Translations under genes and position numbers: made by a program
Shown: piece after piece, positions 21,894 through 63,460 of the stretch
Numbering within the stretch: position 1 is the first letter of the stretch
Layout: each line of letters begins with the position of its first letter
The notes under the pieces: generated by a model
Seen by the model: only the letters and a program-made list of their open reading frames with translations
What the model was told of the DNA's origin: nothing
The model's database searches: none
Origin: Gimibacter soli
GTDB lineage: Bacteria > Pseudomonadota > Alphaproteobacteria > Sphingomonadales > Kordiimonadaceae
DNA length: 64,000 bases
Direction of reading: 5' to 3'
NCBI RefSeq assembly: GCF_028463845.1
Contig: NZ_CP116805.1
Location: forward strand, 3,096,001 to 3,160,000

Positions 21894-22013
21894 ATGTTAC
21901 GCATCCCGCTGGCCCTCCTGTTGACCCTGTTTGCTGGCGGCTGCGCGATCGTTACCGCACCGGTCAAGGTGGCGACCGGGGCGATCGACATTGTGGTCGA
22001 CACGGTCGACTGA
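21894..22013 (+). CDS. 39-aa putative lipoprotein
   Basis: A tiny gene with a complete lipoprotein signal: MLRIPLALLLTLFAGGC with lipobox FAGGC (Cys17), then a 22-residue tail rich in Val, Ile and Ala (VTAPVKVATGAIDIVVDTVD). It resembles very small alphaproteobacterial lipoproteins with a conserved APVKATG motif (I recall DUF6726, not verified). It lies 37 bp before kynA, same strand. A weak GAG RBS precedes the ATG. Role unknown. Confidence 0.6.
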   Translation: MLRIPLALLLTLFAGGCAIVTAPVKVATGAIDIVVDTVD

Positions 22014-22050
22014 AAAGCGCCACCCGAAACGCCCTAGTGATGGACCGCGC

Positions 22051-22902: not shown

Positions 22903-22926
22903 CGACAGGACCAAGGGAGACACCCC

Positions 22927-23550: not shown

Positions 23551-23558
23551 GGCGACGG

Positions 23559-24107
23559 GTGGAACCGCGCGCCTCGCTCGCTGACATCCACTGGCCTGCC
23601 TTTGCGGCGGGTTTGGTGATCATCGGCGGGGCCTGCGCCTATATGATGCCGGACCTGCCCCGGCTGGCCGCCAGCCTCGTGCTGCTTACCGCCCTTCTCT
23701 ATCTGGCGCTTTATGACATTCGTCACATGCGCCTGCCAAATGCTGTCACCTTTCCCCTCATTGCCCTCGGCCTTTTGCACGCTGGCCTTAACCAATATGA
23801 CAATCCGTTTGCGGACAGCCTGATCGGCGCCGCTGCCGGATATGGCATCCTCTGGGGCATCAGCGCTGCATACCGGGCCCTGCGCGGACGTGACGGGCTG
23901 GGGCTTGGCGACGCCAAACTCGTCGCGGCGGCGGGCGCGTGGCTTGGCTGGCAATCGCTGCCGTTTCTGCTGCTTTTCGCGGCCGGCGGGCAGCTTCTCG
24001 CCCTCCTCATCCCGCCCCTCATCGGCAAGCGTTTCGACTCGTCCGCAGCCATCCCTTTCGGGCCGGCGATTACGCTATCATTTTGGGCGCTCTGGCTCGT
24101 CCGATAG
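23559..24107 (+). CDS. Prepilin peptidase, A24 catalytic domain only
   Basis: Membrane aspartyl protease that cleaves type IV-like prepilin leaders, here about 182 aa. Seen: catalytic Asp motifs YDIRHMRLPN (Asp53) and GLGDAKL (Asp118) and about six TM helices. The N-terminal methylase/zinc domain of full-length GspO/PilD is absent, as in CpaA/TadV-like enzymes. The GTG at 23559, with GAGG six bases upstream, is preferred to a TTG at 23547 overlapping kynB. It lies 6 kb before the gspC-N operon, which has no other prepilin peptidase, so processing of GspG-K is its likely task. Confidence 0.85.
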   Translation: MEPRASLADIHWPAFAAGLVIIGGACAYMMPDLPRLAASLVLLTALLYLALYDIRHMRLPNAVTFPLIALGLLHAGLNQYDNPFADSLIGAAAGYGILWGISAAYRALRGRDGLGLGDAKLVAAAGAWLGWQSLPFLLLFAAGGQLLALLIPPLIGKRFDSSAAIPFGPAITLSFWALWLVR

Positions 24108-24163
24108 GGCGTTTTTCGGGTCGAGTGTGAACGTTTTGTGAATATTTGACCCCCCTTTCACCC

Positions 24164-24197
24164 CTGCAAAGAAACTGTAACAGGCGCTCTCTATAGC
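24164..24197 (+). promoter_or_regulatory. Pho-box-like promoter of the lipoprotein gene
   Basis: CTGCAAA (24164-24170), GAAA, CTGTAAC (24175-24181): two 7-mers at 11-bp periodicity like the PhoB consensus CTGTCAT-N4-CTGTCAT. Ten bases further is TATAGC (24192-24197), a good -10, at exactly the distance seen in classical Pho promoters. It lies about 95 bp before the lipoprotein ATG. Confidence 0.5.
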
Positions 24198-24292
24198 CGC
24201 ATTTCGGTGCTTGGCTCCGATCCGTTCGGGCTGCCCGGCGCATGGATTTGTTCCAATCCGACCTAATCAAAAGTCCTTTGCGGGGAAGAAAC

Positions 24293-27091
24293 ATGACCAG
24301 CATGAAATCACTGAAGTCGGTGCTATTGGCCGCGACTGCCGCCCTGGCAATCGCTGCTTGCGGCGACAGCTCGACCGAACTCGCCTCACCGGGCAATGAA
24401 GGCCCGAACCCGGGCACCGGCGGCGATGGCGGCAACGGCGGCGGCGATGGCGGCGGCGATGGCGGTGGCAGCACCGGCGATTGCCCGACCGGCACCACCG
24501 GCGTAACCGTCGGCAGCCAAACGCACTGCCGTCTCTCCGGCACCATCACCAGTGACATCACCCTGACCGAAGGCAACCTGTACCAGCTGAGCGGCAAGGT
24601 TGTGATCGGCGTGGACGCAGGCGCTGAAGGCAATGCCGGCGCTGGCGATCCGGCCACCCTCACCATTGAACCGGGCGTCACCATCTACGGCGCGACCAAG
24701 AGCGACGTTCTGGTCATCTCGCGCGGTTCGAAAATCGAAGCTGACGGCAACTCGGGCGACCCTATCGTCTTCACCTCGGGCCTCGACCTCGGCCTTGCTT
24801 CCGCCCTTGGCATCTCGAACACCCGTCCGAGCTACAGCGGCCCGGCGCTTGAAGAGCCCTTCACCGCTGAATGGGGTGGCATCGTGATCAACGGTCGCGC
24901 CTCGATCAACACCTGTAACGGTTCGGGCATCTGCGAAGCAGAAGGCGAAGGCGACAGCGGCCTCTATGGCGGCAACGACGACGCGGACTCGAGCGGTTCG
25001 ATGAAATATGTTCAGGTCAAATATGCCGGTAACCCGATTACCGCTGATGACGAACTGAACGGTATCGCCTTCCAGGGCGTCGGTTCGGGCACCGAGCTCG
25101 ACTATATCCACGTCCACAACGGCGCTGACGACGGCGTCGAGTTCTTCGGCGGCACCGCCAACATCAAGCACCTTGTGATCACCGGCGCTGACGACGACAG
25201 CCTCGACTGGACCCAGGGCTGGCGCGGCAAGGCCCAGTATGTTCTCATCATGCAGAACTCGAACCAGCCGAACTCGGACCAGGGCATCGAAGCCGACAAC
25301 TTCGGCGACGGCATGGACTTCACCCCGCGTGCACGTCCGCTCCTGTCGAACATGACCATCATCGGCGCTGGCGACAAGAGCATCGGCGACATCGGCATGC
25401 TGCTCCGCGCTGGTACCGGCGCCCGCATCTGGAACACGGTTGTCACCAACTTCGGTGAAGAGTGCCTCGATATCGATGACGCACCGACCTATGCAAACCG
25501 TGACAATGCCACGACCGGCATCACCATCCAGTCGACCTTCCTGGCTTGCACCAGCGGCAACTTCGACAATGGTGCTGAAGACGGCGATCTGGAAAGCTGG
25601 TTCCTCGGCCAGTCGAACAACAAGGTCGGCACCTCGTCGCTTTCGGGCTTCATCAACGGCACGCAGGAAAATGCCGTCGTTGCAACGAACGTCCGCAGCG
25701 TCAACACCTTCTTCGACAACGCCGGTTACGCCGGTGCAGTGCGCTCGGCCGCCACGGCTGACAACTGGACCCTCGGCTGGTCCTACGGCATCAACGACGC
25801 TGCCGGCTGCCCGGATGGCACCACCGCCGAAGGCGATGATGCTTGTGTCCTTGAAGGCACGCTCACCGAGAACGTCCGCCTGATCGCCGGTTTCGACTAT
25901 ATCCTGAAAGGGAAAGTCGTTGTTGGTGAAGATATCGGCGGCAACGGCAACAGCCCGTCGGCCACCGCCGCTCAGGCAACCCTCACGATCGACGCTGGCG
26001 TCACCGTGATGGGTGAAGACAAGCAATCCTACCTCGTCGTTTCGCGCGGTTCGAAGCTTGTATCGAACGGCACCAAATCGTCGCCCGTGACCTTCACCTC
26101 GGTGAATGATGCCACTGCCAACCTCGACACCGATACCTCGCTCTGGGGCGGTCTCGTGATCAACGGCCGTGCCCCGATCAACACCTGTAACGGTTCGGGC
26201 ATCTGCGAAGCAGAAGGCGAAGGCGACAGCGGCCTCTATGGCGGCAACGTCTCCGACGACGACAGCGGCCAGATCCTCTACACCGTCGTGAAATACGCCG
26301 GCAACCCGATCACTGCCGATGACGAACTGAACGGCGTTGCCTTCCAGGGCGTTGGCTCGGGCACCACTGTTGACTATCTGCAAGTCCACAACGGCGCAGA
26401 CGACGCGGTCGAATTCTTCGGCGGCACCGTCAATGCGAAGCACCTTGTTCTGACCGGCGCTGACGATGACAGCCTCGACTGGACCCAGGGCTGGCGCGGC
26501 AAGGTTCAGTACGCCGTAATCGTACAGAACCCGAACCAGCCGAACTCGGACCAGGGCATCGAAGCCGACAACTTCGGCGATGGCATGGACTTCACCCCGC
26601 GTGCACGTCCGTTCCTGTCGAACATCACCCTCTACGGCGCTGGCGACAGCAGCATCGGTGACATCGGCATCCTGCTCCGCGCTGGTACAGGCGCCCGTAT
26701 CTGGAACACGGTTGCCGCCAACTTCGGTGAAGAGTGCCTCGACATCGATGATGCACCGACCTACGCCAACCGCGACAACGTGAACTCCGGCATCACCATC
26801 CAGTCGACCCTGCTGGGCTGCGTTGACAGCGGCAACTTCGACGATGGCGCCGAAGACGCGGACCTCGAAGCCTGGTTCCTTGGCCAAAGCAACAACGTTG
26901 CAGCAGACACGGGTACCGTCCTCGTTGCACCGGCCGGTGGTGGCAAGAACTTCATCACCAGCCAGTCCGCAGTAACGGCCACCAACGTCAGCGCAGTCGA
27001 CAGCTTCTTCGACAACACCGACTTCATCGGTGCCGTGAAGAACGACGCTGGCGACTGGACCAAAGGCTGGACTGTCTGGCTCCACCAGTAA
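24293..27091 (+). CDS. Large surface lipoprotein with internal duplication, predicted beta-helix
   Basis: 932 aa. Seen: lipoprotein signal with lipobox AIAAC (Cys23); a Gly/Asp linker at about 35-62; then two long homologous halves with a constant offset of 424 residues through the conserved core. Each half carries WGG-VINGRA, INTCNGSGICEAEGEGDSG, DDELNG-AFQGVGSGT, HNGADD-VEFFGGT, LTGADDDSLDWTQGWRGK and GEECLDIDDAPTYANRD. Similar proteins exist in marine bacteria and Bacteroidetes as secreted beta-helix-like proteins of unknown role. No enzyme motif was recognised. Gly rather than Asp at +2 is compatible with outer-membrane sorting. It is followed by a TonB-dependent receptor and gspC-N, so it is a likely type II substrate. 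The start at 24293 has a GGGGAAG RBS. Confidence 0.85.
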   Translation: MTSMKSLKSVLLAATAALAIAACGDSSTELASPGNEGPNPGTGGDGGNGGGDGGGDGGGSTGDCPTGTTGVTVGSQTHCRLSGTITSDITLTEGNLYQLSGKVVIGVDAGAEGNAGAGDPATLTIEPGVTIYGATKSDVLVISRGSKIEADGNSGDPIVFTSGLDLGLASALGISNTRPSYSGPALEEPFTAEWGGIVINGRASINTCNGSGICEAEGEGDSGLYGGNDDADSSGSMKYVQVKYAGNPITADDELNGIAFQGVGSGTELDYIHVHNGADDGVEFFGGTANIKHLVITGADDDSLDWTQGWRGKAQYVLIMQNSNQPNSDQGIEADNFGDGMDFTPRARPLLSNMTIIGAGDKSIGDIGMLLRAGTGARIWNTVVTNFGEECLDIDDAPTYANRDNATTGITIQSTFLACTSGNFDNGAEDGDLESWFLGQSNNKVGTSSLSGFINGTQENAVVATNVRSVNTFFDNAGYAGAVRSAATADNWTLGWSYGINDAAGCPDGTTAEGDDACVLEGTLTENVRLIAGFDYILKGKVVVGEDIGGNGNSPSATAAQATLTIDAGVTVMGEDKQSYLVVSRGSKLVSNGTKSSPVTFTSVNDATANLDTDTSLWGGLVINGRAPINTCNGSGICEAEGEGDSGLYGGNVSDDDSGQILYTVVKYAGNPITADDELNGVAFQGVGSGTTVDYLQVHNGADDAVEFFGGTVNAKHLVLTGADDDSLDWTQGWRGKVQYAVIVQNPNQPNSDQGIEADNFGDGMDFTPRARPFLSNITLYGAGDSSIGDIGILLRAGTGARIWNTVAANFGEECLDIDDAPTYANRDNVNSGITIQSTLLGCVDSGNFDDGAEDADLEAWFLGQSNNVAADTGTVLVAPAGGGKNFITSQSAVTATNVSAVDSFFDNTDFIGAVKNDAGDWTKGWTVWLHQ
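24904..24977 (+). repeat. 74-bp identical block, copy 1
   Basis: This block is identical, base for base, to 26176-26249, exactly 1272 bp away. It encodes the INTCNGSGICEAEGEGDSG region of the first half of the lipoprotein. Confidence 0.9.
26176..26249 (+). repeat. 74-bp identical block, copy 2
   Basis: Second copy of the block at 24904-24977, in the second half of the lipoprotein gene. Other near-identical stretches (for example around 25321 and 26593) keep the same 1272-bp offset. Confidence 0.9.
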
Positions 27092-27104
27092 GGACCTGAA
27101 CGGG

Positions 27105-27151
27105 TGGCGCTGCCGGCATGCGGAAATTGTCCGCAATCCCCGGCAGCGCCA
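27105..27151 (+). terminator. Strong nested hairpin between the lipoprotein and receptor genes
   Basis: TGGCGCTGCCGG (27105-27116) pairs perfectly with CCGGCAGCGCCA (27140-27151). Inside, GCGGA (27120-27124) pairs with TCCGC (27130-27134). There is no T-run afterwards, so it is more likely an mRNA-stabilising or attenuating stem than a full terminator. Confidence 0.6.
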
Positions 27152-27174
27152 TCGCCATACCTAATCGAACCTGA

Positions 27175-29766
27175 ATGGTGCAAAAGATGAAATCATTCGA
27201 CATGAGCCTTAAGGGAGCCCTGCTTGCTTCCACCGTGCTCGCCCTGCCCACTGCAGCGATTGCGCAGGAAACGCAGGACAGCGGTATCGAGGAAGTCGTC
27301 GTACAGGGCCAGTATATCCCTGACGAAAAGCGTGCGACCTCGGAAATCTCCAACATCCTTGACGCGGAAGCCTTCGCCCGCACGGGTGACAGCGACGTGG
27401 CCGTAGCCCTGACCCGGGTCACCGGTCTCTCGGTTGTCGGCGGCAAATATGTCTATGTCCGCGGTCTTGGCGAACGCTACTCGCTCGCCCAGCTCGACGG
27501 CTCGACCCTGCCGCCGCTGTCGCCACTGCGCCGCGACGTGCCCCTCGACATCTTCCCGACCGCCATGGTCGGCTCCGTCCTCGTGCAGAAAACCTTCTCG
27601 CCTGAATATCCGCTCGACTTCGGCGGCGGTGTCGTCGACATGCGCACCAAAGCCGTGCCGGACGAGCAGATCCTTGAGATCGGCATCGGCACCAAGTTCA
27701 ATACCGAAAGCACCTTCAAGGGCGGCCTCAGCTACGATGGTCCGAACTCTGAATTCTTCGGTTTTGGCGGCAAGATGCGCGATCTGCCGGCAGCCCTTGC
27801 TGCCAACCCGACGCTTGAAGGCATGACCGCCGAAGAGCGTAACGCAGCAGCCGAAGCCCTGCCGAACAAATGGTCAATCGATGCGGAGGACAACCTGCCC
27901 GCCGCCAAGGTCGATTTCACCTACGGCGACCGCTTCGAATCCGGTGACAACGCCTACGGTTTCCTCATCTCGGGCAACTATGAGAACGAGTGGGACAACG
28001 AGTTCGGCGAGCGCAATACCTACGCCACCTCGAACGCCGGCCTCGTGCCCCGCGACGAAGTGAATGCCGAAGCCTGCGCCAAGTATGAAAGCGGCGATGC
28101 CACCGATTGCGGTCGCCGCGTCACCAACCAGAATATCAGCCTCAATGGTATCCTGACCGTTGGTGCCGAGCTCGGCCCCGATCACGCCCTGAAGGCTACT
28201 TCGGTGATCCTGCGCAAGTCCACGAAGCGCGCTTCGATCGAGAAGGGTTCGTTCGCTTCCGATCCGGGCTCGATCCGCACCAACAGCGAAACCTGGTGGG
28301 AAGAGCGTGAAGTCTGGTGGAACCAGGTATCGGGCGAGCATCATTTCTCGCACGATAGCGACACGTTCCAGGAAACCCAGGTCAACTGGCTCGCCAACTA
28401 TACCCGGTCGACCCGTGACCTGCCCTTCTGGCGCGAATTCACCTACGATTTCGACGAGAACGAACAGGCCGATCTCCTGTCGCCCCGTACCGACGGCAAC
28501 CGCACGTCCTACGGCGCCCTGAAGAGCGAAACCTGGTCGGGCGGCGTCGATATCCTCCAGCCCGTCACGCTCGGCGATACGCCGGTCGATTTCAAGCTCG
28601 GTGCCCATATGTCGGATCAGGACTATACGTCCTCGATGCTGCGTTATGGCTTCGTCTTCCCGGCGGGTGCCAATATCGAGCTTCGCAAGCTTGTTCCTGA
28701 AATCGTCTTCGGTCCGGTCAACCTTGATCCGGCTGGCATTACGCTCGCCGAATATACCGACCCGTCGGACGAATTCACCGGCAACCAGAAGATCACCTCG
28801 CTTTATGCCGGGATCGACGCCCAGCTTTCCGACGTGCTTCGGATCGCTGTCGGTGGCCGCTATGAAAAGTCGGAACAGGATCTTCTGACCTTCATCCGCG
28901 TCACCGGCGAGCCTGACCCGGTCAGCCGCTCGGAAGAGGATTTCCTCCCCGCCGCGACCCTGACCTGGGAATTTGCCGAGAACCTGCAGCTGCGTCTTGC
29001 CTACTCGCAGACGGTGAACCGCCCGACGCTCCGCGAGTTGTCGCGCGCTACCTTCGTCAACGAGCGTGGCGAGAACGTTCGCGGCAACCCCGATCTCCTG
29101 ACGGCCGACATCGACAACTATGATGCCCGGATCGAATGGTACTTCGGTGCTGCCGACTTCGCGTCGGTCGGTGTCTTCTACAAGGACTTCACCAACCCCA
29201 TCGAGGAAAGCTACACCATCCTCGGCGAGGGCCCGCTGAAGAGCCTGCAGAATGCCGCCGGTGCCAAGCTGAAGGGCGCGGAAGCCGAACTGCAGATCAA
29301 CCTGCCGGTTCGCGAGGCTTTCGGCTGGGACTTCGTGGGTGACCGCGAATTCTTCTTCAACGGCAACATCTCCTACATCGATTCGGAAGTGGACCTGACC
29401 GGTCAGGACACCCAGGCAACGACGCTGGTGCGTCCGCTGCAGGGCACGTCCAAGTGGCTCGGCAACGCTTCGATCGGCTGGGAAGAGTTCGAGACCGGCG
29501 AGCGCGTCTCGCTCGTCCTCAACTATCAGGGCAAGCGGATCGACGGTACGGGCCTCTTCGGGGCACCGGACGTTTACGAGAACCCGCCGATCCTCCTGAA
29601 CTTCGTTTACAAGCGGAATGTCGATGTGTTCGGCGGCCCGCTCGAAGTCAGCTTCAAGGCAGAAAACCTGCTGAACGACGATTACCGCCGCACGCAAGGC
29701 GAGGGTATCTTCGAACAGTATGACCTCGGTCGCGCCTTCTCGCTCGGCTTCAAATACTCGTTCTGA
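27175..29766 (+). CDS. TonB-dependent outer-membrane receptor
   Basis: 863 aa. Seen: signal peptide ending TAAIAQE near residue 31; a TonB-box-like EEVVVQGQ; plug domain with YVYVRGLGERYSLAQLDG and DFGGGVVDMRTK; a 22-strand-size barrel; C-terminal LGFKYSF. No N-terminal regulatory domain, unlike the receptor at 3275-6478. Substrate unknown. Position between the lipoprotein and gspC suggests the lipoprotein delivers or releases its ligand. The start could also be ATG 27187; neither has a clear RBS. A strong terminator follows. Confidence 0.88.
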   Translation: MVQKMKSFDMSLKGALLASTVLALPTAAIAQETQDSGIEEVVVQGQYIPDEKRATSEISNILDAEAFARTGDSDVAVALTRVTGLSVVGGKYVYVRGLGERYSLAQLDGSTLPPLSPLRRDVPLDIFPTAMVGSVLVQKTFSPEYPLDFGGGVVDMRTKAVPDEQILEIGIGTKFNTESTFKGGLSYDGPNSEFFGFGGKMRDLPAALAANPTLEGMTAEERNAAAEALPNKWSIDAEDNLPAAKVDFTYGDRFESGDNAYGFLISGNYENEWDNEFGERNTYATSNAGLVPRDEVNAEACAKYESGDATDCGRRVTNQNISLNGILTVGAELGPDHALKATSVILRKSTKRASIEKGSFASDPGSIRTNSETWWEEREVWWNQVSGEHHFSHDSDTFQETQVNWLANYTRSTRDLPFWREFTYDFDENEQADLLSPRTDGNRTSYGALKSETWSGGVDILQPVTLGDTPVDFKLGAHMSDQDYTSSMLRYGFVFPAGANIELRKLVPEIVFGPVNLDPAGITLAEYTDPSDEFTGNQKITSLYAGIDAQLSDVLRIAVGGRYEKSEQDLLTFIRVTGEPDPVSRSEEDFLPAATLTWEFAENLQLRLAYSQTVNRPTLRELSRATFVNERGENVRGNPDLLTADIDNYDARIEWYFGAADFASVGVFYKDFTNPIEESYTILGEGPLKSLQNAAGAKLKGAEAELQINLPVREAFGWDFVGDREFFFNGNISYIDSEVDLTGQDTQATTLVRPLQGTSKWLGNASIGWEEFETGERVSLVLNYQGKRIDGTGLFGAPDVYENPPILLNFVYKRNVDVFGGPLEVSFKAENLLNDDYRRTQGEGIFEQYDLGRAFSLGFKYSF

Positions 29767-29803
29767 TCACTATCGCGCGTCCAAGCACGATCGGAAGAAC
29801 TGG

Positions 29804-29834
29804 CCCCCCGAAGCAATCTTCGGGGGGTTTCTTT
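29804..29834 (+). terminator. Rho-independent terminator after the receptor
   Basis: CCCCCCGAAG (29804-29813) pairs perfectly with CTTCGGGGGG (29818-29827) around CAAT, followed by TTTCTTT. It separates the lipoprotein-receptor unit from the gsp operon, which therefore needs its own promoter. Confidence 0.92.
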
Positions 29835-29905
29835 ATGGGACACCGCCAGCCTGGTAGCCGCTTTGATGGCAAATTTGTTTCGGAAAAATGACATTTCCAC
29901 CGGGA

Positions 29906-29923
29906 CTGTCATGAATTTGAAAC
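29906..29923 (+). promoter_or_regulatory. Pho-box-like repeat upstream of gspC
   Basis: CTGTCAT (29906-29912, a perfect consensus half-site), GAAT, TTGAAAC (29917-29923). The 11-bp periodicity and orientation suit PhoB activation of gspC, 55 bp downstream. The -10 position (CAGGTT, 29934-29939) is poor, which lowers confidence. Confidence 0.45.
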
Positions 29924-29977
29924 AGGGACCGGTCAGGTTGGCGCCGACATGAGACATACCAACCGGATCTATCATTC

Positions 29978-30850
29978 ATGACAGACCAGACGGCAGCGCC
30001 TGCAGCAGCCCTTCGGCAACCGGCCCCGGCCAGCCTTTTCCGCCGGCTGGTGGAGCTTGGCCTTGTCGTCATGCTCGGCCTCGTGGCCGCCCATTTTGTC
30101 TGGCTCATGGTCGCCCCGGCGAGTCGCCTGCCTGCCCCTGCTGCGGACCTGCAATCAGCCGCAAGCTTCACCCGGAAGCCCGCAGAAAAGCTCGATCTCG
30201 GCATCCTTACCCGCTTCGATCCCTTCAACCGCAGCCTCGCGGCCCCGGTGACTGAAAGCGCGGAAGCCGCCCCCGAGACGAGCCTCGATCTCAAGCTTTT
30301 CGGGGTTCGGCTTTCGGATGACCCGGCGCATTCCAGCGCCATCATCCAGACCGGCGGCAAGGACCAGAGCGTATACCGTCCCGGTGACGAAATCCTCTCC
30401 GGCGTACGACTCGACCGGGTTTATGACAACCGGGTCAGCCTCAGCCGCGCCGGTGTGATCGAAACGCTGTCGCTGGATGACGGCAGCGGCCCGATCCTCG
30501 GCGGCAACACGCCCGCCAAGGTTGCTACCGCAGTTGGCCCGGCAATTGCCGCGAACGACCTGAAGTCGGTGCTCAGGCAGGTGCGGCTTGTGCCCCGCCG
30601 CGAGGGCCAGCGCATCACCGGCTGGCAGATCGATACCGACGGAAGCCCGGCAGGTGCAGCTGCCCTTAAATCCTATGGCCTCGAGCCCGGCGATGTCCTC
30701 GCCAGCCTGAACGGCGAAACGCTCGGCAGTGCCGAAGACCTCACGGATGCCCTTTCGGAGATTGACCGCACAGGCAGCGTCCGCCTTGAAATCGAACGCG
30801 CCGGCAAGCGCATTCCCCTGACCCTCAGTTCAGAAAGCAATCCGGCATGA
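29978..30850 (+). CDS. gspC: Type II secretion protein GspC
   Basis: Inner-membrane clamp that contacts the secretin GspD across the periplasm. 290 aa. Seen: short cytoplasmic N-terminus; one TM at about 27-46; an HR domain (LDLKLFGVRLSDDPAHSSAIIQ, then DQSVYRPGDEI); and a C-terminal PDZ-like domain (LEPGDVLASLNGETLGSAEDL). First gene of the operon, which has its own upstream region after a terminator. It overlaps gspD by four bases. Confidence 0.92.
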   Translation: MTDQTAAPAAALRQPAPASLFRRLVELGLVVMLGLVAAHFVWLMVAPASRLPAPAADLQSAASFTRKPAEKLDLGILTRFDPFNRSLAAPVTESAEAAPETSLDLKLFGVRLSDDPAHSSAIIQTGGKDQSVYRPGDEILSGVRLDRVYDNRVSLSRAGVIETLSLDDGSGPILGGNTPAKVATAVGPAIAANDLKSVLRQVRLVPRREGQRITGWQIDTDGSPAGAAALKSYGLEPGDVLASLNGETLGSAEDLTDALSEIDRTGSVRLEIERAGKRIPLTLSSESNPA

Positions 30851-34301: not shown

Positions 34302-35518
34302 TGCCTGCCTTCGATTTCGAAGCCCTGGATACAGATGGCCGCGTCAAGCGCGGGGTCCTTTCCGCCGATAGCGCGCGGGGGGCCGCGAAGGCGCTGAAGG
34401 ACCGCGCCCTGTTGCCCGTCAAGATCGAGCCCGCCGCCAAAACCGGTGGCGAGGCGAAAAGCTTCGGTTTGCGCTCGGGCCGCCTGTCGCACCGGGATAT
34501 CACCCTTGTCACCCGCCAGCTTTCGACGCTGATCGGTGCCGCCACCCCGGTTGAGGAAGCGCTGAAGACCGTGGCCGAACAGGCCGAGAAGCCGCTCGTC
34601 AAGCGCGTGCTTCTGGATGCCCGCACGGGCGTGAGCGAAGGCCGCAAGCTTTCAGCCGCCCTCGCCACCACGAACGCAGGGTTCGACCGGCTCTATGTGG
34701 CGCTTGTGGCCGCCGGGGAAGGCTCCGGCAGCCTCGGCCCCGTGATGGAACGGCTCGCCGATCATCTGGAAAAGGCGCAGGCGATGCGCGGCAAGGTGAC
34801 AGCCGCACTCGTCTATCCCATCTGCCTTGCTGTCACTGCCTTTCTGGTCGTCACCATGCTGATGAGTTTCGTGGTGCCCAAGGTGGTCGATCAGTTCAGC
34901 CACATGGGCGCCACCCTCCCGGCCCTCACGCGCGTCATGATCGCGCTTTCCGCTTTCATGCGGGAAGTTGGCCCCTTCCTGCTGGTGGCTGCCGTAATCG
35001 CCGCCGCCGCTTTCGCCCGTGCCCTTAAAAGCTCCGCCTTCCGGCTGAAGGTCGATGCCTTCCTGTTGCGCCTGCCGCTGGTTGGCAAGCTGATCCGCTC
35101 GCTCGCCGCCGCCCGCCTTGCCCGCACGCTTGCCACCCTTATCGCCTCCGGCGTGCCGGTGTTGGATGGCATGAAAGCGGCAGAAGCTGTTATCGGCAAC
35201 GGTGTGATCCGGCAGGCGGTGGGCGCCATGCGCGACCGCATCACCAATGGCGCCAGCCTTTCGGCTGCCCTCAGGAGTGAAGCCGTACTCCCGGCCATCG
35301 TCACCCACATGGCGGCTGCGGGCGAAAACTCGGGCGCGCTCCACACCCTCCTCGCCAAGGCGGCGGACTATCTGGAAGCCGAGTTTGAGCGCTTCACCTC
35401 CACCGTCCTCGGGCTTCTGGAGCCCGCCATCATCATTGTCATGGGCGGGATCGTCACGCTGATCGTGCTCTCGATCCTTCTGCCCATCCTGCAGCTCAAC
35501 ACGCTCGCCTTCGGCTGA
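34301..35518 (+). CDS. gspF: Type II secretion inner-membrane platform GspF
   Basis: Polytopic platform protein that couples GspE to pseudopilin assembly. 405 aa, the usual size. Seen: two homologous T2SSF domains (LVTRQLSTLIGAATPVEEAL and ARLARTLATLIASGVPVLDG) and three TM segments around 170-195, 220-240 and 375-400. The start is coupled to the gspE stop. Confidence 0.95.
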   Translation: MPAFDFEALDTDGRVKRGVLSADSARGAAKALKDRALLPVKIEPAAKTGGEAKSFGLRSGRLSHRDITLVTRQLSTLIGAATPVEEALKTVAEQAEKPLVKRVLLDARTGVSEGRKLSAALATTNAGFDRLYVALVAAGEGSGSLGPVMERLADHLEKAQAMRGKVTAALVYPICLAVTAFLVVTMLMSFVVPKVVDQFSHMGATLPALTRVMIALSAFMREVGPFLLVAAVIAAAAFARALKSSAFRLKVDAFLLRLPLVGKLIRSLAAARLARTLATLIASGVPVLDGMKAAEAVIGNGVIRQAVGAMRDRITNGASLSAALRSEAVLPAIVTHMAAAGENSGALHTLLAKAADYLEAEFERFTSTVLGLLEPAIIIVMGGIVTLIVLSILLPILQLNTLAFG

Positions 35519-35536
35519 GCGACAAGGAACCGAAAG

Positions 35537-35995
35537 ATGCTGAAAACGCTGCTGAAGAAACTGAGAAAACAGGCTGCAAAGGACGAGGGTTTCACCCTTG
35601 TTGAAGTGATGGTGGTGATCGTCATCATCGGGCTTCTGGCCACGGTCGTTGTCATCAACGTGCTGCCAAGTCAGGACAAGGCAATGGTCGAAAAGGCCCG
35701 CGCCGATATCCTGATCCTCGAGCAGGCGCTGGAGATGTACAAGCTTGATAACCTGACTTATCCGACCACGGATCAGGGTCTTGAAGCGCTTGTCACCCCG
35801 CCCGCCGGCCTCTCGCGCCCCGAACGCTACCGCCCCGGCGGCTATATCAAGCGCCTGCCGGACGACCCGTGGGGCAATGCCTACCAGTATGCCACCCCCG
35901 GCGAGCATGGGTCGGTCGATATCTTCTCGCTCGGCGCCGATGGTCGCATGGGCGGGGCCGACCTTGCGGCCGACATCGGCAACTGGAAGGGATGA
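35537..35995 (+). CDS. gspG: Major pseudopilin GspG
   Basis: 152 aa. Seen: an 18-residue basic leader ending DEG, then FTLVEVMVVIVIIGLLA with Glu5 of the mature chain; YPTTDQGLEALV, LPDDPWGNAYQY and FSLGADGRMGG, the conserved major-pseudopilin core with the calcium-binding loop. Cleavage is predicted after Gly18 by a prepilin peptidase such as that at 23559-24107. RBS AAGGAACCGAAAG. Confidence 0.96.
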   Translation: MLKTLLKKLRKQAAKDEGFTLVEVMVVIVIIGLLATVVVINVLPSQDKAMVEKARADILILEQALEMYKLDNLTYPTTDQGLEALVTPPAGLSRPERYRPGGYIKRLPDDPWGNAYQYATPGEHGSVDIFSLGADGRMGGADLAADIGNWKG

Positions 35996-36001
35996 TCCCT
36001 G

Positions 36002-36481
36002 ATGGGTGGCAGGCGGGCATCCAGTGACGCGGGCTTCACGCTCGTTGAGGTGATGGTCACCGTCGCTCTGATGGCGCTTGCCTCGGCGGCTGTTGTCCTC
36101 ACCCTGCCACGCCTGAACCCGAGCCCTGAAGCGACCGCAGAGGCCACCCGCGACCGCCTTGCCGATATCGCCGCCCGCGCGGTGATCGGCGGCGAGATCA
36201 TGGGCGTGGAGGTCGACCATGACGGCCTGACACCGCTCTATCGCCGCGACGGCCGCTGGGTCGAGGCTGGTCCACGCTGGATCGCCGAAGGGGCAGGCCT
36301 CGCCCTTGAAGGCATCCCGGCGGAAAAGGGCGAAGACGGCACCCCTCGCCTGCCGGACCTCTGGTTCACGCCGGCGGGCGATGCCAGATCATTCCGCCTC
36401 CGTATCGAACGAGACGGTGACACGGTACTCCTCACGGGCGACGAACAGGGGCAGATGCGCCTGACGGGAGAGAAGCCGTGA
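36002..36481 (+). CDS. gspH: Minor pseudopilin GspH
   Basis: 159 aa. Seen: leader of 11 residues ending DAG, then FTLVEVMVTVALMALASAAVV; a beta-rich C-terminal domain with LWFTPAGDARSFRLRI. Positioned between gspG and gspI as in standard operons; seven bp after gspG and overlapping the first gspI start by four bases. Confidence 0.88.
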   Translation: MGGRRASSDAGFTLVEVMVTVALMALASAAVVLTLPRLNPSPEATAEATRDRLADIAARAVIGGEIMGVEVDHDGLTPLYRRDGRWVEAGPRWIAEGAGLALEGIPAEKGEDGTPRLPDLWFTPAGDARSFRLRIERDGDTVLLTGDEQGQMRLTGEKP

Positions 36482-36960
36482 GCCGCCATTCCTGGAATCC
36501 GTTCGTCCTGAGGAGCCCCGTAAGGGGCGTCTCGAAGGACACGCCGCTTGCCCGGTCTTCGAGACGCGGCCATGCCGCTCCTCAGACCGAACGGAGCAAC
36601 GTGGAATCAGGTTTCACCCTTATCGAAGTGCTTGTCGGGCTTGCCGTCTTTTCGATCGCGGCCCTCGCGCTCCTGTCCGCAACGCGGGAAAGCGTGCGCC
36701 ATGCCGTGGCACTTGATGCCCGCCTTGGCGCCGATATCGTGGCCGACAACCGGCTGGTTGAAGTGTTGAGTGCGCCCGAGCCCGCCACCGCCGGGCAGCG
36801 CACCGGCACGGTCGATCTCGGCGGTCGTCGCTACGATTGGGCCGAACGGGTCCGTCCCCTTGAAGGCTTCGGCGTGATGCAGGTTGAGGTTTCGGTGCGC
36901 GAGGCGGGCAGCGAACAGGTAATCGCCAACGCGTCGGGCCTTCGGGAGGTATCGCGGTGA
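36478..36960 (+). CDS. gspI: Minor pseudopilin GspI with unusual leader
   Basis: The pseudopilin signature ESG/FTLIEVLVGLAVFSIAALALLS starts only at residue 46 when the GTG at 36478 is used. Residues about 9-39 are encoded by an inverted pair of palindromic repeats (36501-36592), an insertion-like element read through in frame. The 36478 GTG has a good RBS (GGGAG) and the usual GTGA overlap with gspH. An in-frame GTG at 36601, with GGAG four bases upstream, would give a very short leader (MESG). Which start is used is undecided. The C-terminal part is a normal GspI. Overlaps gspJ by four bases. Confidence 0.85.
   Translation: MSRHSWNPFVLRSPVRGVSKDTPLARSSRRGHAAPQTERSNVESGFTLIEVLVGLAVFSIAALALLSATRESVRHAVALDARLGADIVADNRLVEVLSAPEPATAGQRTGTVDLGGRRYDWAERVRPLEGFGVMQVEVSVREAGSEQVIANASGLREVSR
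36501..36592. repeat. Inverted pair of ~40-bp palindromic repeats inside gspI
   Basis: Unit 1 (36501-36540) begins GTTCGTCCTGAGGAG and ends CGTCTCGAAGGAC. Unit 2 (36553-36592) read on the minus strand begins GTTCGGTCTGAGGAG and ends CGTCTCGAAGACC. Each unit is itself able to fold, with a variable GC-rich centre (CCCCG-TAA-GGGG, or GCGGC-AT-GGCCGC). The form matches short intergenic palindromic repeats known from alphaproteobacteria, here within a reading frame. No other copy was noticed in the window. Confidence 0.85.
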
Positions 36961-37580
36961 CACGCCAGCCTTCAGACGCCGGTTTCACGCTCATCGAAAC
37001 GCTCGTCGCCCTTGCTGTCTTTGCCATTCTGGCGGCCGGCACCACAACACTGATCGGGCAAAGCTTGCGCACCCGTGACGCGGTCGGTGACGCCACCAAC
37101 GCCCAGGCCGAACTGACGCTCGCCCGCGCCATATTGAAGGATGATCTTCTTTCTGCCGTCGCACGCCCGGCCCGCGACAAGTTCGGCGGCGCGACACCCG
37201 TTTCCCTCTCTGCTGGCAGCGTGGAGGCGGACGCACCGCTCCTGTCGCTAGTGCGCCGGGGCCGCGCCAATCCGGGCATGGCAGAGGACCGCACCAGCCT
37301 TCTTTATGTCGAATACCGGTTCGAAAATGGCGCCCTTGTCCGCCGCACCCGTGCCCGCGTCGATGCCACGCCGGAAACACCGGTGAGCGACCGCGTGCTG
37401 CTGACCGGACTTGAAGCCGCAAGGTTCGAAATACTCGGCGCCGGGGGCTGGGTCGGCAACTGGAAGGCCGGTGACCTGACGGCCGGCGGCTTGCCGATTG
37501 CCGTCGCACTTGTCACCGATGCCGCCAAGGATGGCTCTTTGCGGCAGCTTTTCCTCGTCAGCGGCGAGGTGCGGCGATGA
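36957..37580 (+). CDS. gspJ: Minor pseudopilin GspJ
   Basis: 207 aa. Seen: nine-residue leader ending DAG, then FTLIETLVALAVFAILAAGTTTL; a beta-rich domain with LLYVEYRFENGALVRRTRARVD and a C-terminal LRQLFLVSGEVR. Part of the I-J-K pseudopilus tip. Overlaps gspI and gspK by four bases. Confidence 0.9.
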   Translation: MTRQPSDAGFTLIETLVALAVFAILAAGTTTLIGQSLRTRDAVGDATNAQAELTLARAILKDDLLSAVARPARDKFGGATPVSLSAGSVEADAPLLSLVRRGRANPGMAEDRTSLLYVEYRFENGALVRRTRARVDATPETPVSDRVLLTGLEAARFEILGAGGWVGNWKAGDLTAGGLPIAVALVTDAAKDGSLRQLFLVSGEVRR

Positions 37581-38566
37581 AACCCGAAGCCCCCATGGCA
37601 AACGACCGCGGTGCTGTGCTGATCACTGTTCTTCTGATGGTGGCCTTGATGTCGGTCATCGCCGTCGGCCTGTCGGGTCGCGTTTCAGCGCTCATCGCCC
37701 GCCAACATCTCATCGAGACAGGCTCTGCCGCGCGGGAAGCGGCCTTGTCTGCCGAGACCTTGGCAAAAGCCGTGCTGCGCCAGTCTTTCGCGCTGAACAA
37801 CAACCGCACCACGCTTGACGCGCCCTGGGCGCGGCCAGCCCATTTCATGACCGAAGCAGGCCGTATCGACGGCCAGATTTCGGATGGCGGCAATTGTTTC
37901 AATCTCAATAGCCTCGTCTCCGGCGAAGGGTCGATCCGGCAATCGAACCCGGCCGCGCAGGCCGAGTTTGCCCGACTGATGGCGCTCCTCGGCCTCAACC
38001 CGGCCGAAGCCGAAGCGATTGCCGCCGCTGCCGCCGACTGGATCGACGGCGATACCCGCCCCAATCCGCGCGGGGCGGAGGATTATGACTATATGGCCGC
38101 CAGTGTGCCCCACCGCGCCGGCAACACGCTGATGGCGGATGTCAGCGAATTTCGCGCCGTGAAGGGGGTCACGCCCGCCGTCTATAGCCTGCTGCGCCCC
38201 TATCTGTGCGCGCTGCCGGTGACCGACCCCGCGCCCCTCAATGTGAATACGCTGATGCCCGCTGCCGCCCCCGTGGTCGCCGCCCTGTTCCCCACTGACC
38301 CCGATCTTGGCCGCATCATGGATGCCATCGCCTCGCGCCCGGCGGCTGGCTATGGCGCGCCGGAAGAATTCTGGCGACTACCTCCCTTCCGGAGCCTGAC
38401 GGTCGGGGACGAGATCAAGGCGCGCACCAGTGTGCGTTCCCGCTTTTTCATGCTTGTTGCTGCCGTCAGCCATGCAGATGCCCGCATCACGCTGACCGCC
38501 CTTTTTGATGCGACGGGCAAGGACGATGTTCGCCTTGTCAGCCGCCGGTTCGGAGACGAAGAATGA
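37577..38566 (+). CDS. gspK: Minor pseudopilin GspK
   Basis: Tip-capping pseudopilin, 329 aa, larger than the others as is typical. Seen: NDRG/AVLITVLLMVALMSVIAVGLS, lacking Glu5 as expected for GspK; GGNCFNLNSLV; AAAAADWIDGDTRPNPRGAED; NVNTLMPAAAPVVAALF. ATG 37595 is an alternative start nearer the cleavage site. Overlaps gspL by four bases. Confidence 0.92.
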   Translation: MKPEAPMANDRGAVLITVLLMVALMSVIAVGLSGRVSALIARQHLIETGSAAREAALSAETLAKAVLRQSFALNNNRTTLDAPWARPAHFMTEAGRIDGQISDGGNCFNLNSLVSGEGSIRQSNPAAQAEFARLMALLGLNPAEAEAIAAAAADWIDGDTRPNPRGAEDYDYMAASVPHRAGNTLMADVSEFRAVKGVTPAVYSLLRPYLCALPVTDPAPLNVNTLMPAAAPVVAALFPTDPDLGRIMDAIASRPAAGYGAPEEFWRLPPFRSLTVGDEIKARTSVRSRFFMLVAAVSHADARITLTALFDATGKDDVRLVSRRFGDEE

Positions 38567-39678
38567 CCGACCCAGTCCTGATCCTGATCGCGGACCCCAC
38601 CGACCCCGGCGCGTGGCGCTGGGCGCGGGTCGGGGCAGATGGTCGCCTGATTGCCTCCGGCACCGGTGATAGCGCCAGTCTGCCCGGCAAGGGTGACGAG
38701 CGTGTCGTGCTGGTGCTGGCGGGTGAAGCCGTGCGGGGCCGCCGGATCGACCTTCCTGCCAAAACCGACGCGCAGGCCCGCGCGGCCCTCCCTTATCTTC
38801 TGGGCGATGAACTGGGTGACAGTGCCCGCAGCCTGCATTTTGTGCTGGATACGGGCGGCGCCGGCGAGCGTTCGGTTTACTGGACGGAAGCAGCCCCGCT
38901 CGCGGCGCGCTTGGCGGCCCTTGAAGCCCGCGACCTGACGCCGGACCTGATCACCGCCGATTTCATCGCCCTGCCCGCCACCATCACGCCTTACGCACTG
39001 GCGGACGGGGAACGCGCCATCCGCGTGGCGCCGGAGCCGACCGAAGGCTATGCCGCGGACCTCGGCCTTTTGTCGCTGCTGGACCCCGACCTTCCAGCCG
39101 AAGCCCTGATGCCCGTCCGGCTGGACGGCCTTGCCTCCCGCCTTGCGGAAGGGATCGCCCGTTATAGCGGCCCCGATTTCCGGCAGGGTGCCTTCGCGCC
39201 GCGCCGTGCGTGGGGTGAAATCTGGCTGGTGTGGCAACGCGCTGCGGTGCTGGCCTTGGCGCTTCTCGTTCTCGCGGGCGCCGTGGTGCTGGCCGAAGGC
39301 TTCAAGGCCCGCAGTCTAGCGGACGAGACTGACGCGGCAACACAAGCGGCACTGCGCGATGCCTTCCCCGATGTGCGCGGCCTGCCGCACCTGCAATCGC
39401 GGCTCAAAGCCTTGCGTGGCACTGGCGCTGACCCGTTCCTCGCGCTTTCCGCCCGGCTGTTCGCGGCTGCTGAAACGGTGGACGGCGTGATGGTGAACGG
39501 CCTGCGCTTTGACCGGAGCGAAGGGCGCCTTTCAGCGGCCATCAGTGCTGCGAGCTTCGGCGATATCGAACGCCTGAAAGCGGCAGTGGCCGAGCGCGGC
39601 GCCACCTTCACCGAAGGCGCTTCCCGGCAGGAAGGTGGCCGCATCATCAGCGAAATCACGATCGGAGAACGGCCATGA
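38563..39678 (+). CDS. gspL: Type II secretion protein GspL
   Basis: Bitopic inner-membrane protein recruiting GspE. 371 aa. Seen: an actin-like cytoplasmic N-terminal domain with VLVLAGEAVRGRRIDLPAKTDAQARAALPYLLGDEL, one TM at about 228-248, and a periplasmic ferredoxin-like domain. Forms a complex with GspM, encoded next with a four-base overlap. Confidence 0.9.
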   Translation: MTDPVLILIADPTDPGAWRWARVGADGRLIASGTGDSASLPGKGDERVVLVLAGEAVRGRRIDLPAKTDAQARAALPYLLGDELGDSARSLHFVLDTGGAGERSVYWTEAAPLAARLAALEARDLTPDLITADFIALPATITPYALADGERAIRVAPEPTEGYAADLGLLSLLDPDLPAEALMPVRLDGLASRLAEGIARYSGPDFRQGAFAPRRAWGEIWLVWQRAAVLALALLVLAGAVVLAEGFKARSLADETDAATQAALRDAFPDVRGLPHLQSRLKALRGTGADPFLALSARLFAAAETVDGVMVNGLRFDRSEGRLSAAISAASFGDIERLKAAVAERGATFTEGASRQEGGRIISEITIGERP

Positions 39679-40169
39679 CTGCAGCCCTCAAGCCCGTCAC
39701 CGGCTGGTGGAACGGCCTGTCGCCGCGCGAACATCTGATGCTTGGCGGCCTTGGCATCATCGTCACGTTGCTGATCCTCTGGTATGCCATCGCCGCCCCG
39801 CTCCTTGCATGGCGTGCTGAAGGGATCGACACGCTGGATGCCGCCCGTCGCGATGCCGCCTTCGTTGAAAGCGCGATTGCCGAGGCTGCAACCCTTGGCA
39901 CCACCCAGCCCAAGGTGGCAACCGGCGATTTGCGCGCCAGCATTTCCGAAAGTGCGCTCGCCCGCGGTGTGCCGATCAGCCGCCTACAGCCCGAAGCGGC
40001 GGGCGGGATCAATGTCTGGGTTGAAGGTGTCACACCGACGCTTCTCTATGCCTGGCTTGCCGAAATCGAAAAGACCTACGGCATCGGTACGGCCCGCGCC
40101 GTCATCTCCCGCGCTGCCGATGGTGGCGGCCTCACTGTGCAATTGCTGCTGACAGGGGCGGGGTATTGA
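39675..40169 (+). CDS. gspM: Type II secretion protein GspM
   Basis: 164 aa. Seen: WWNGLSPREHLMLGGLGIIVTLLILWYAI, the conserved N-terminal WxxLxxRE motif followed by a TM, then a periplasmic ferredoxin-like fold. Partner of GspL. Overlaps gspL and gspN by four bases each. Confidence 0.9.
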   Translation: MTAALKPVTGWWNGLSPREHLMLGGLGIIVTLLILWYAIAAPLLAWRAEGIDTLDAARRDAAFVESAIAEAATLGTTQPKVATGDLRASISESALARGVPISRLQPEAAGGINVWVEGVTPTLLYAWLAEIEKTYGIGTARAVISRAADGGGLTVQLLLTGAGY

Positions 40170-40882
40170 ACCAGCGGACACTCCTCGCCACCGGCCTCGC
40201 AGCTTTCGCCATCGGCCTTGTTGCCTGCCTGCCCCTTTCCCTTTTCCTGCCTGCTTCAGGGCAGGATGGTCTCCATTATAACGGGGCAAGCGGCACGGTG
40301 TGGCAGGGCGGCAGCGTTACGGGTGTGCGTTACAAAGGCGTGCCGGTTGGCACTGTCGATATCGAGCCCTCGATAAGCGCCTTGCTGACCGGTGCCATCG
40401 GCGGTGACATCCGGGTGCGGGGCAGCTTCCTGAATGGCACGGGCCATGTTTCTGCGGGCGACGGGATCGTGGCGCAGGATGCGTCGCTCCGCGTTGCCCT
40501 TGCCGGGCTGCAACTTCCCTTGCCGCTGGATGGTGCCCTTGAGCTGGCCGGTTTCAACGCCCGCATCGAAGGCGACCGCTGCGTCGAGGCCTCGGGCAAT
40601 GTCCGCCTTGTTGCTGATCTTGCAGGCAATGCTGGCCTGCTGCCCCCGCTGCGCGGCACAGCGGCGTGCGAGGATGGCCAGCTTGTCCTCCGCCTGCAGG
40701 GCGCTGCCCGCGGCACCAATCTCGGGTTAGCCGCATGGATTGCCCCCGTCGGCGGCTACCACCTCACGGCGGACCTTGCCACGACAGAGGCTGACATCCG
40801 CCGGGTTCTCCCCTATATGGGCTTTGTTCAGGCCGGGAATAGCTTTAAGCTCGAGATCAAAGGCCGCTGGCAGGGGGATTGA
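40166..40882 (+). CDS. gspN: Type II secretion protein GspN
   Basis: 238 aa. Seen: N-terminal TM at about 9-29; GASGTVWQGG, the GspN block; VDIEPSISALLTG; LRGTAACEDGQLVL. GspN is present in only some type II systems and its role is unclear. Last recognisable gsp gene; the following lipoprotein starts two bases after its stop. Confidence 0.85.
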   Translation: MNQRTLLATGLAAFAIGLVACLPLSLFLPASGQDGLHYNGASGTVWQGGSVTGVRYKGVPVGTVDIEPSISALLTGAIGGDIRVRGSFLNGTGHVSAGDGIVAQDASLRVALAGLQLPLPLDGALELAGFNARIEGDRCVEASGNVRLVADLAGNAGLLPPLRGTAACEDGQLVLRLQGAARGTNLGLAAWIAPVGGYHLTADLATTEADIRRVLPYMGFVQAGNSFKLEIKGRWQGD

Positions 40883-40884
40883 CG

Positions 40885-41391
40885 ATGCGTTTGTTTACGG
40901 CTGTTGTAGCAGGCGCCGGCCTCATGCTTTCGGCCTGCACCGGCACCACTAACACACCGCCTGCTGCGCAAGCGCCAGCCGCACCTGCAGCCCCATCCGA
41001 AGAAGGCCCCGCCGGGCGTATCGGCACCCTGCCCCCGCAGGAACTGGCGGATGGCACATGCGGGCTTTATCTTTTCGCACGGGAAGTCGGACGCCGCCTT
41101 GTGTTCGTCTCCGACACCACCAGCACTGACGCCCGGATGCAGATCGACGGCAGACCTGCGCAGCTCACCCGTGTGTCAGCCTCCGGCACGGCTGCCGGGC
41201 GCTTCTTCCCTGAAATGCGCTACGAGGCAGGTGGGGTCACCGTCAGCGTCAGCTATGTGCCCGAAATGAATGGTAACCTCAGCGGCGGCGCCGTCATCCG
41301 CGAGGGCCGCCTGACCTTCGCCGATGCCTCCGGCTGGTCCTATGTGATGCCCGTGGCCGGGCTTATCGCCTGCCGCCCGGCGCAGGAGTGA
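40885..41391 (+). CDS. Small lipoprotein linked to the gsp operon
   Basis: 168 aa, family not recognised. Seen: signal with lipobox LSAC (Cys18), a Pro/Ala linker, then a beta-rich domain with ELADGTCGLYLFAREVGRRLVFV and VMPVAGLIACRPA; two Cys may pair. The ATG at 40885 follows AGGGGG. Only two bases separate it from gspN, so it is probably in the same transcript. An outer-membrane pilotin-like role for the secretin is possible but purely positional. Confidence 0.75.
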   Translation: MRLFTAVVAGAGLMLSACTGTTNTPPAAQAPAAPAAPSEEGPAGRIGTLPPQELADGTCGLYLFAREVGRRLVFVSDTTSTDARMQIDGRPAQLTRVSASGTAAGRFFPEMRYEAGGVTVSVSYVPEMNGNLSGGAVIREGRLTFADASGWSYVMPVAGLIACRPAQE

Positions 41392-41402
41392 GGAAACAGG
41401 CA

Positions 41403-42155
41403 ATGCGGATACCGCTGCGTATTGTTTCCTGCCTGATGGCCAGCCTCTGGCTCTATGCTTTGCCGGCAACTGCCGAGGATAAGCTGCCGGTCGTCGATAT
41501 CTATCTGGACCGCGGGACAGAAGTCCTCATACGCAAGGACCGGGACCGTTACGCCGTTGCAGCGGTCGACAAGCTGAAACGCTTCATGGACCGCACCGGG
41601 CTCAGATACCGGCTGCGATACCTGCCGTGGTCGCGCGCCATGCGGCTTATCGAAAAGAACCCGAAAGCGCTGATCTACCAGTTGCTGCGCACACCGGAAC
41701 GGGAAGAACGCTTCCACTGGATCATGCAGGTATTTGACGGCGACGCCCTCCACCTGATCGCGCTCGACACCACCCCGGAAGCCCGGCTGAAGCTGCCGGA
41801 AATTCTGAAGGGCAATACGCTGATCGGCTGCCAGAAAGCGACCGCGCACTGTGATGTGGTACGCAAGCTTGGCGTCTCCGAAGAACGGATCATGGAAGTC
41901 CCGGCGGCTGTGCCGACAGCACTCGAGCAGATGCTGCTGCGCCAGCGCGTGGATTTCATCATCGCCTATAAAAGCACCGCGCGAAGCAATTTCGATGCGC
42001 TTGGCGAAGATCCGGCGCGCGCCGTTTTCATCACACCACTCGACAGTTCAGACGACTATCTGGCCGCTCCGGCCGGTATCGATCCCGCCATTCTGGCCAA
42101 GCTTTTGGCTGTGCCGCTGGCTGACTTTCCGCTCCTTGAAACACCGTCGCGGTGA
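41403..42155 (+). CDS. Periplasmic solute-binding-like protein
   Basis: 250 aa. Seen: signal peptide ending LPATAED (about residue 25); VDKLKRFMDRTGLRYRLRYLPWSRAMRLIEKNPKALIYQLLRTPERE, the pattern of family 3 extracellular solute-binding folds (PBPb) seen in orphan periplasmic proteins. No permease genes adjoin it, so a sensor or orphan role is as likely as transport. ATG 41403 with AGGAAACAGG upstream is preferred to a GTG at 41388. It closes the gsp-lipoprotein gene string. Confidence 0.75.
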   Translation: MRIPLRIVSCLMASLWLYALPATAEDKLPVVDIYLDRGTEVLIRKDRDRYAVAAVDKLKRFMDRTGLRYRLRYLPWSRAMRLIEKNPKALIYQLLRTPEREERFHWIMQVFDGDALHLIALDTTPEARLKLPEILKGNTLIGCQKATAHCDVVRKLGVSEERIMEVPAAVPTALEQMLLRQRVDFIIAYKSTARSNFDALGEDPARAVFITPLDSSDDYLAAPAGIDPAILAKLLAVPLADFPLLETPSR

Positions 42156-42227: not shown

Positions 42228-42302
<75 letters not shown>

Positions 42303-63385: not shown

Positions 63386-63460
63386 GATTGCATACCCCCA
63401 AACTCGAACCGAAAACACGATTTGAGAACGGGTTTCATGTTTTTGTCAATCTACTGAAAT

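Follow-up and report, generated by a model that had tools for sequence, protein, structure and literature searches.

The stretch of DNA analyzed here (the window) covers 64,000 nucleotides, bases 3096001 to 3160000 of the single-contig, 3.59-Mb genome of Gimibacter soli. On its plus strand lie gspO, encoding a prepilin peptidase that consists of the peptidase domain only (23547-24107; PF01478, Peptidase_A24); a gene for a 932-residue putative surface lipoprotein of the ElpS type (24293-27091), comprising a signal peptide with lipobox, a tether, and two predicted β-helix domains; a gene for an 859-residue TonB-dependent receptor (TBDR) with the plug motif YVRGLGERYS..VPLDIFP and matches to barrel and plug families (27187-29766); the type II secretion system (T2SS) genes gspC to gspN; and two genes for exported proteins. 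The T2SS genes are gspC (29978-30850; PF11356, with TIGR01713 below its cutoff), the secretin gene gspD (30847-32802; TIGR02517 over cutoff), the ATPase gene gspE (32802-34301; TIGR02533 over cutoff), gspF (34301-35518; TIGR02120 over cutoff), the pseudopilin genes gspG, gspH, gspI, and gspJ (35537-37580; PF08334, N_methyl, PF02501, and PF11612), and gspK, gspL, gspM, and gspN (37577-40882; PF21687, PF12693/PF05134, PF04612, and PF01203). The preliminary description of this DNA had listed the same genes on one strand, and the Pfam and NCBIfam matches bear it out: the TBDR barrel and plug are recognized, and the T2SS is complete from GspC to GspN plus the prepilin peptidase, with gspH assigned only through its N_methyl motif and position.

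The two trailing genes encode a small lipoprotein of 170 residues (40879-41391, plus strand) and an exported protein of 255 residues that looks binding-protein-like by eye (41388-42155, plus strand); neither has a Pfam match. The small lipoprotein also follows gspM or gspN in most relatives, including the Caulobacteraceae, at 25 to 41% identity, and it is possible that this protein, which closes the gsp operon, is an accessory T2SS lipoprotein not yet recognized as such. A tRNA gene lies just past the cluster (42231-42302, minus strand).

The cluster forms two units, elpS-TBDR and gspC onward, rather than one, since a strong terminator-like hairpin (29802-29829, plus strand) separates them and each has its own Pho box. 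The box before elpS, CTGCAAA GAAA CTGTAAC, spans positions −129 to −112 relative to the ATG (24164-24181, plus strand), and the box before gspC reads CTGTCAT GAAT TTGAAAC (29906-29923, plus strand). Within the first unit, elpS and the TBDR gene are likely cotranscribed. The gspO gene probably stands outside both phosphate-controlled units, since the tryptophan dioxygenase and cyclase genes run directly into it (21931-24107, plus strand), with a 4-base overlap between the cyclase gene end and gspO; given this overlap, gspO may share a transcript with the tryptophan breakdown genes. A sigma-70 promoter scan gave no match near the cluster genes, a result that carries little weight. In most relatives of the order, gspO is likewise upstream of elpS, and in some Caulobacteraceae it is downstream and in the opposite direction. 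Some Sphingomonadaceae (L092, L105, and L108) have kept the neighborhood but rearranged it, with the gsp genes placed upstream of elpS and facing the other way. Since the gene order is kept across the order, the cluster shows no sign of being a mobile island.

The preliminary description had also reported Pho-box-like repeats before the lipoprotein gene, gspC, and a distant Oar-like receptor gene. We scanned both strands of the window (~128,000 positions) with a weight matrix for CTGTCAT-N4-CTGTCAT (18-mers, with the repeats 11 bases apart), a home-made matrix built from the textbook consensus. The repeats proved real: two CTGTCAT-like repeats 11 bases apart, a feature of the PhoB regulon, are present upstream, and the Oar-like, gspC, and elpS sites ranked 1, 2, and 5, respectively, in the whole window. 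They also outscored dinucleotide shuffles of their own promoters (Oar-like, 0 of 2,000 shuffles; gspC, P = 0.0005; elpS, P = 0.0035). When the gene order and repeats were sought in relatives, the Pho signal was found to be kept at both elpS and gspC. Upstream of elpS in 84 loci, the forward-strand median was 14.0 bits, versus 4.8 bits in 356 other intergenic regions (P = 1e-22) and 9.3 bits on the reverse strand (P = 2e-9). The signal was also enriched upstream of 49 gspC genes relative to other regions (P = 1e-8), with a difference from their own reverse strand of only P = 0.02, and it was not enriched before the TBDR gene or the inner gsp genes of these loci when the same matrix was used. 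Several Caulobacteraceae and one of the two Xanthomonas loci had weak sites, and strong boxes occurred at several of the T2SS-less loci described below (e.g., L044 to L046). The T2SS of Caulobacter has been placed in the PhoB regulon (PMC11208175). The conservation of these boxes supports the proposal that the cluster is under phosphate control.

The Oar-like receptor gene (3275-6478, minus strand), whose product has CarboxypepD_reg and OMP_b-brl_4 domains, is preceded by the best Pho box in the window (6594-6611, minus strand). Oar-like genes in many of the family's genomes have similar sites before them, even where the encoded protein is only 40% identical. Fjoh_3841, a phosphate-induced TBDT of Flavobacterium, carries the N-terminal Pfam domain of the Oar-like receptor (PMC8115612). 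Other Pho-like repeats were seen toward the end of the window. Three in an 11-base register, GTTTCAT GTTT TTGTCAA TCTA CTGAAAT (63432-63460, plus strand), lie near the window end, after a Sel1-repeat gene (61601-63418, minus strand), and the repeats CAATCAA GTTT CTGTCAT (60774-60802, minus strand) lie between an AMP-binding ligase gene (59078-60703, minus strand) and an EipA envelope gene (60833-61531, plus strand).

Relatives of the lipoprotein were sought in 100 genomes of the order, 289 of the class, 60 Caulobacteraceae, and a named genome collection, which gave at least 539 of them. The named loci discussed below are the best 80 of these and are rich in Sphingomonadaceae, so locus percentages should not be read as unbiased frequencies. 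All lipoprotein searches led to one family (A1-A3), which links the window with loci of Caulobacteraceae, Xanthomonas, Sphingopyxis, and Hyphomonas; the named loci include Brevundimonas, Phenylobacterium, Asticcacaulis, Xanthomonas, Luteimonas, Sphingomonadaceae, Hyphomonas, Maricaulis, Aliidiomarina, and Catenovulum. The lipoprotein matches no Pfam or NCBIfam family, and only 4 of 61 family members weakly touch Beta_helix.

The window lipoprotein has the lipobox LAIAAC with Cys23, a Gly-rich tether, and two domains (about residues 64 to 495 and 500 to 932) that share 63% identity across 444 aligned columns. Two domains were found in 40 lipoproteins and one in 87 matches; the two-domain forms occur in the family of the window, several other families of the order, Maricaulis/Oceanicaulis-type genomes, Catenovulum, and Aliidiomarina. 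Over domain residues 200 to 340, the halves of one protein are 74 to 80% identical, versus 43 to 66% between proteins, whereas the first 100 domain residues instead split into an N type and a C type. In the core, the two halves agree at 39 of 43 fourfold-degenerate third positions in the window, 44 of 49 in L069, and 51 of 51 in L070, compared with an average of about 43% expected from codon usage. Since this synonymous-site identity exceeds what selection on the protein alone would give, gene conversion between the halves is likely in these three genes; the signal is weak in other two-domain genomes.

Searches for a solved relative of ElpS by sequence returned two chance matches with a single sequence and none with a profile. 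The AlphaFold2 model of the C-terminal domain of the window lipoprotein had a pLDDT of 94.7, and the full-length model showed two well-predicted domains behind 58 low-confidence residues (signal peptide and tether), with an unreliable mutual placement of the domains (pTM of 0.57). Foldseek matches to the domain were weak (best E value of 1.4e-3), and structural alignment led to right-handed β-helices with Z scores of about 20 to 23, among them AlgE4 (Z of 22.9), the PL9 lyase Pel9A (Z of 20.6), tailspikes, NosD, and pertactin. The ElpS domain is thus confidently predicted to be a right-handed parallel β-helix, a shared fold that does not by itself show function. Six acidic residues on neighboring coils (D208, D209, E212, D230, D234, and E262) are invariant in 61 sequences, and D231 is nearly so; R90 is the sole invariant basic residue, no lysine or histidine being invariant in this set. 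In its spacing, the conserved D..DxxE / DDxSxD pattern resembles the calcium site known from PL9 pectate lyases, and we treat this likeness as a lead only.

ElpS and one TBDR subfamily constitute an obligate pair, the fixed unit of the cluster. A TBDR gene lies immediately 3′ of elpS in all 80 named loci (the best 80 of at least 539), and among the matches listed, the plug motif RGL..RY...VPLDxFP occurs no more than 1.3 kb past the elpS stop codon in 115 of 121 loci. Three of the remaining six loci end at a contig edge, and the other three encode a TBDR whose motif deviates; the motif did not recur anywhere else in the 2.3 Mb of these 121 loci. Whole-genome searches of 26 genomes that lack elpS found no TBDR scoring above 54 bits, compared with 328 to 890 bits in six elpS-positive genomes, and the window TBDR has no close paralogue in its own genome. 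The distances of ElpS and TBDR correlate (r of 0.85 in a mirror-tree analysis uncorrected for shared phylogeny). No solved relative of the TBDR was found at an E value of 0.001.

A hairpin lies between the two genes of the pair, directly 3′ of the elpS stop codon (about 27101-27154, plus strand; z of −5.2). In 83% of 119 loci, the 90 bases past this stop codon had a z below −2 relative to shuffled sequence (median z of −3.4), compared with 28% of 220 control gaps between genes (median z of −0.7). The stems vary in sequence, and a T-run is present in only 17 of the 119 stretches and is absent from the window copy. Stems in intergenic gaps commonly shield the message that lies 5′ of them, and the hairpin probably gives more lipoprotein than receptor.

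The T2SS, in contrast to the pair, is an optional neighbor that the lipoprotein and receptor can dispense with. Fewer than two gsp genes were found nearby in 40 of 83 loci, some of which end at a contig edge, and no GspD over the family cutoff was found in six near-complete genomes that carry elpS-TBDR (G012, G019, G025, G050, G068, and G077), which runs counter to the earlier supposition that the lipoprotein depends on the T2SS. Given the obligate pairing on the one hand and the T2SS genes missing at about half of the loci and from these six genomes on the other, the emphasis shifts from secretion to the pair. The recurrent neighbors of T2SS-less pairs included no obvious phosphatase by eye, so these loci gave no clue to the ligand. 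In family f1, the genomes without elpS (G034, G038, G079, G082, and G088) are also without GspD over the cutoff, as if the whole cluster had been lost together, unlike in the Sphingomonadaceae.

Le Blastier et al. described a lipoprotein-TBDR-T2SS cluster in Caulobacter (CC0170, CC0171, and CC0172-0184) and drew the same cluster for Xanthomonas campestris, Sphingomonas alaskensis, and Hyphomonas neptunium (PMC2996285). Caulobacter ElpS is induced by phosphate starvation and located at the surface, and its release into the medium requires gspC-N; its arrival at the surface does not depend on the T2SS, and extracellular phosphatase activity increases along with it (PMC2996285). In the open literature searched, we found no later function for ElpS and nothing on phosphate for Xanthomonas. 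In the window, the TBDR gene directly follows elpS and precedes gspC-N, the order of the ElpS cluster. The window system is thus of the ElpS kind, in a tandem-domain form, an assignment made through the shared family and neighbors in the published groups. The preliminary description had taken it for a related but different system; the family and gene order are instead those of ElpS (CC0170), with the lipoprotein domain duplicated. Like ElpS-CC0171-gspC-N of Caulobacter, it combines this gene order and lipoprotein family with a TBDR, a T2SS, and putative phosphate control. It differs in having two ElpS domains with likely gene conversion, a gspO gene upstream on the same strand, and extra trailing genes. 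The Caulobacteraceae lipoproteins have 486 to 495 residues, which agrees with the published ElpS size of about 50 kDa. L211 and L213 also share the published Caulobacter position of gspO, which is downstream and facing the other way. The predicted β-helix fold with its acidic cluster, the likely gene conversion between the domains, and the hairpin after the elpS stop codon are new here.

Two other kinds of system offer parallels. In Flavobacterium johnsoniae, ElpS-related lipoproteins encoded beside TBDTs (Fjoh_3856/3857 and Fjoh_0546/0545) are strongly induced by low phosphate, and these FI/FII lipoproteins are abundant outside the cell and have a polygalacturonase-like fold (PMC8115612). The likeness has limits: the TBDTs there have a CarboxypepD-type domain, and the part of the source consulted describes no T2SS linkage (PMC8115612). 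The SusC-SusD systems of Bacteroidota resemble ElpS-TBDR in the obligate pairing of a surface lipoprotein with a TonB-dependent receptor. They differ in that the predicted fold of ElpS is a β-helix rather than the SusD fold (no SusD family match to the lipoprotein was found in Pfam or NCBIfam), in that the lipoprotein gene comes first, and in that ElpS-TBDR has no polysaccharide utilization enzymes.

A strict pair need not work inwards. The TBDR might instead carry or dock ElpS across the outer membrane so that ElpS acts outside the cell, which would account for its T2SS-independent arrival at the Caulobacter surface. Secretion of PopC by Myxococcus xanthus requires a TBDT, Oar, which is likewise dedicated to an extracellular protein, although Oar is a TBDT of another type and PopC is a protease secreted full-length (PMC6434023). 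Strict pairing would be equally expected of a dedicated translocator, which could be scarcer than its cargo and so match the hairpin. However, the plug and barrel of the TBDR look like those of ordinary importers (Pfam), and deletion of the TBDR gene in Caulobacter did not abolish ElpS production, in a paper that covers production rather than localization (PMC2996285). We consider outward transport unlikely. Similar odds attach to an enzymatic role, in which ElpS would be a β-helix enzyme (lyase, hydrolase, or epimerase) whose substrate is a phosphorylated or acidic polymer; its acidic cluster would bind calcium or take part in catalysis, and the TBDR would import the products. The best structural matches, the AlgE4 and AlgG epimerases, PL6 and PL9 lyases, and tailspikes, are consistent with such a role, as are the six invariant acidic residues and the phosphatase activity that accompanies ElpS in Caulobacter medium. 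These matches are only about 6 to 13% identical, however; NosD and pertactin, in the same match list, show that β-helices have binding roles too; and among basic residues R90 stands alone, with neither a lysine nor a histidine that is invariant.

The remaining alternative, put forward in both the original Caulobacter work and the preliminary description, is that the T2SS genuinely carries the lipoprotein as its cargo, the cluster being a secretion island. The shared Pho control, the gspC-N genes that adjoin in about half of the loci, and the need for gspC-N in release into the medium all speak for it. The last point upholds the preliminary description's statement that Caulobacter ElpS is secreted by the T2SS as far as release is concerned, but not as to how the protein reaches the surface, which it does independently of the T2SS (PMC2996285). 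Together with the six genomes that keep the pair without a GspD over the cutoff, this independence largely refutes the cargo rule as a general rule for ElpS; a need of ElpS for the T2SS is the least supported of the readings, and we regard it as very improbable.

We favor, with a probability of roughly 55%, a reading in which phosphate-controlled ElpS captures a phosphorus-containing ligand for its TBDR and the T2SS is a coinduced neighbor. An uptake device is favored because the pair is strict and likely cotranscribed, because Caulobacter ElpS is surface located and phosphate induced, and because of the Flavobacterium parallel. Under low phosphate, PhoB would occupy the Pho boxes upstream of elpS, gspC, and the Oar-like gene, and the hairpin after elpS and the terminator after the TBDR gene would yield lipoprotein in excess over receptor. 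The lipoprotein would be held on the outer membrane surface by its lipid and flexible tether, and its two β-helix domains, each with the same acidic cluster, may capture the ligand, perhaps a polyanion bound through cations. ElpS would pass the ligand to its cognate TBDR for import driven by TonB energy, so that the pair would act like SusD-SusC with a β-helix protein replacing SusD. The coinduced T2SS would export hydrolases and may release the lipoprotein, without being required by the pair. The preliminary description had the lipoprotein supplying the receptors in general; this remains the best reading for its own TBDR, but the Oar-like receptor is tied to it only by shared Pho control. Several observations count against uptake: in Caulobacter, cell phosphate was unchanged and the TBDR transcript was constitutive (Le Blastier et al.; PMC2996285), ElpS is released into the medium, a poor fit with a fixed lid on the receptor, and the Pho boxes of several Caulobacteraceae and one Xanthomonas locus are weak as scored by our home-made matrix.

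More broadly, Pseudomonadota and Bacteroidota may share a widespread two-component outer membrane importer for a phosphorus source, made up of ElpS and its receptor, with a β-helix lipoprotein in the role of SusD. This lipoprotein would have either one domain or two that gene conversion keeps alike; we offer this joint proposal tentatively, at a little below even odds. For ElpS, described in 2010, the tie to one receptor subfamily rather than to the T2SS shifts the question from secretion to uptake, and in Flavobacterium, ElpS relatives are among the surface proteins that low phosphate strongly induces. The question becomes which phosphorus source needs a lipoprotein and a receptor together, and the tandem, probably gene-converted form and the hairpin provide handles on the number of binding sites and the ratio of lipoprotein to receptor.
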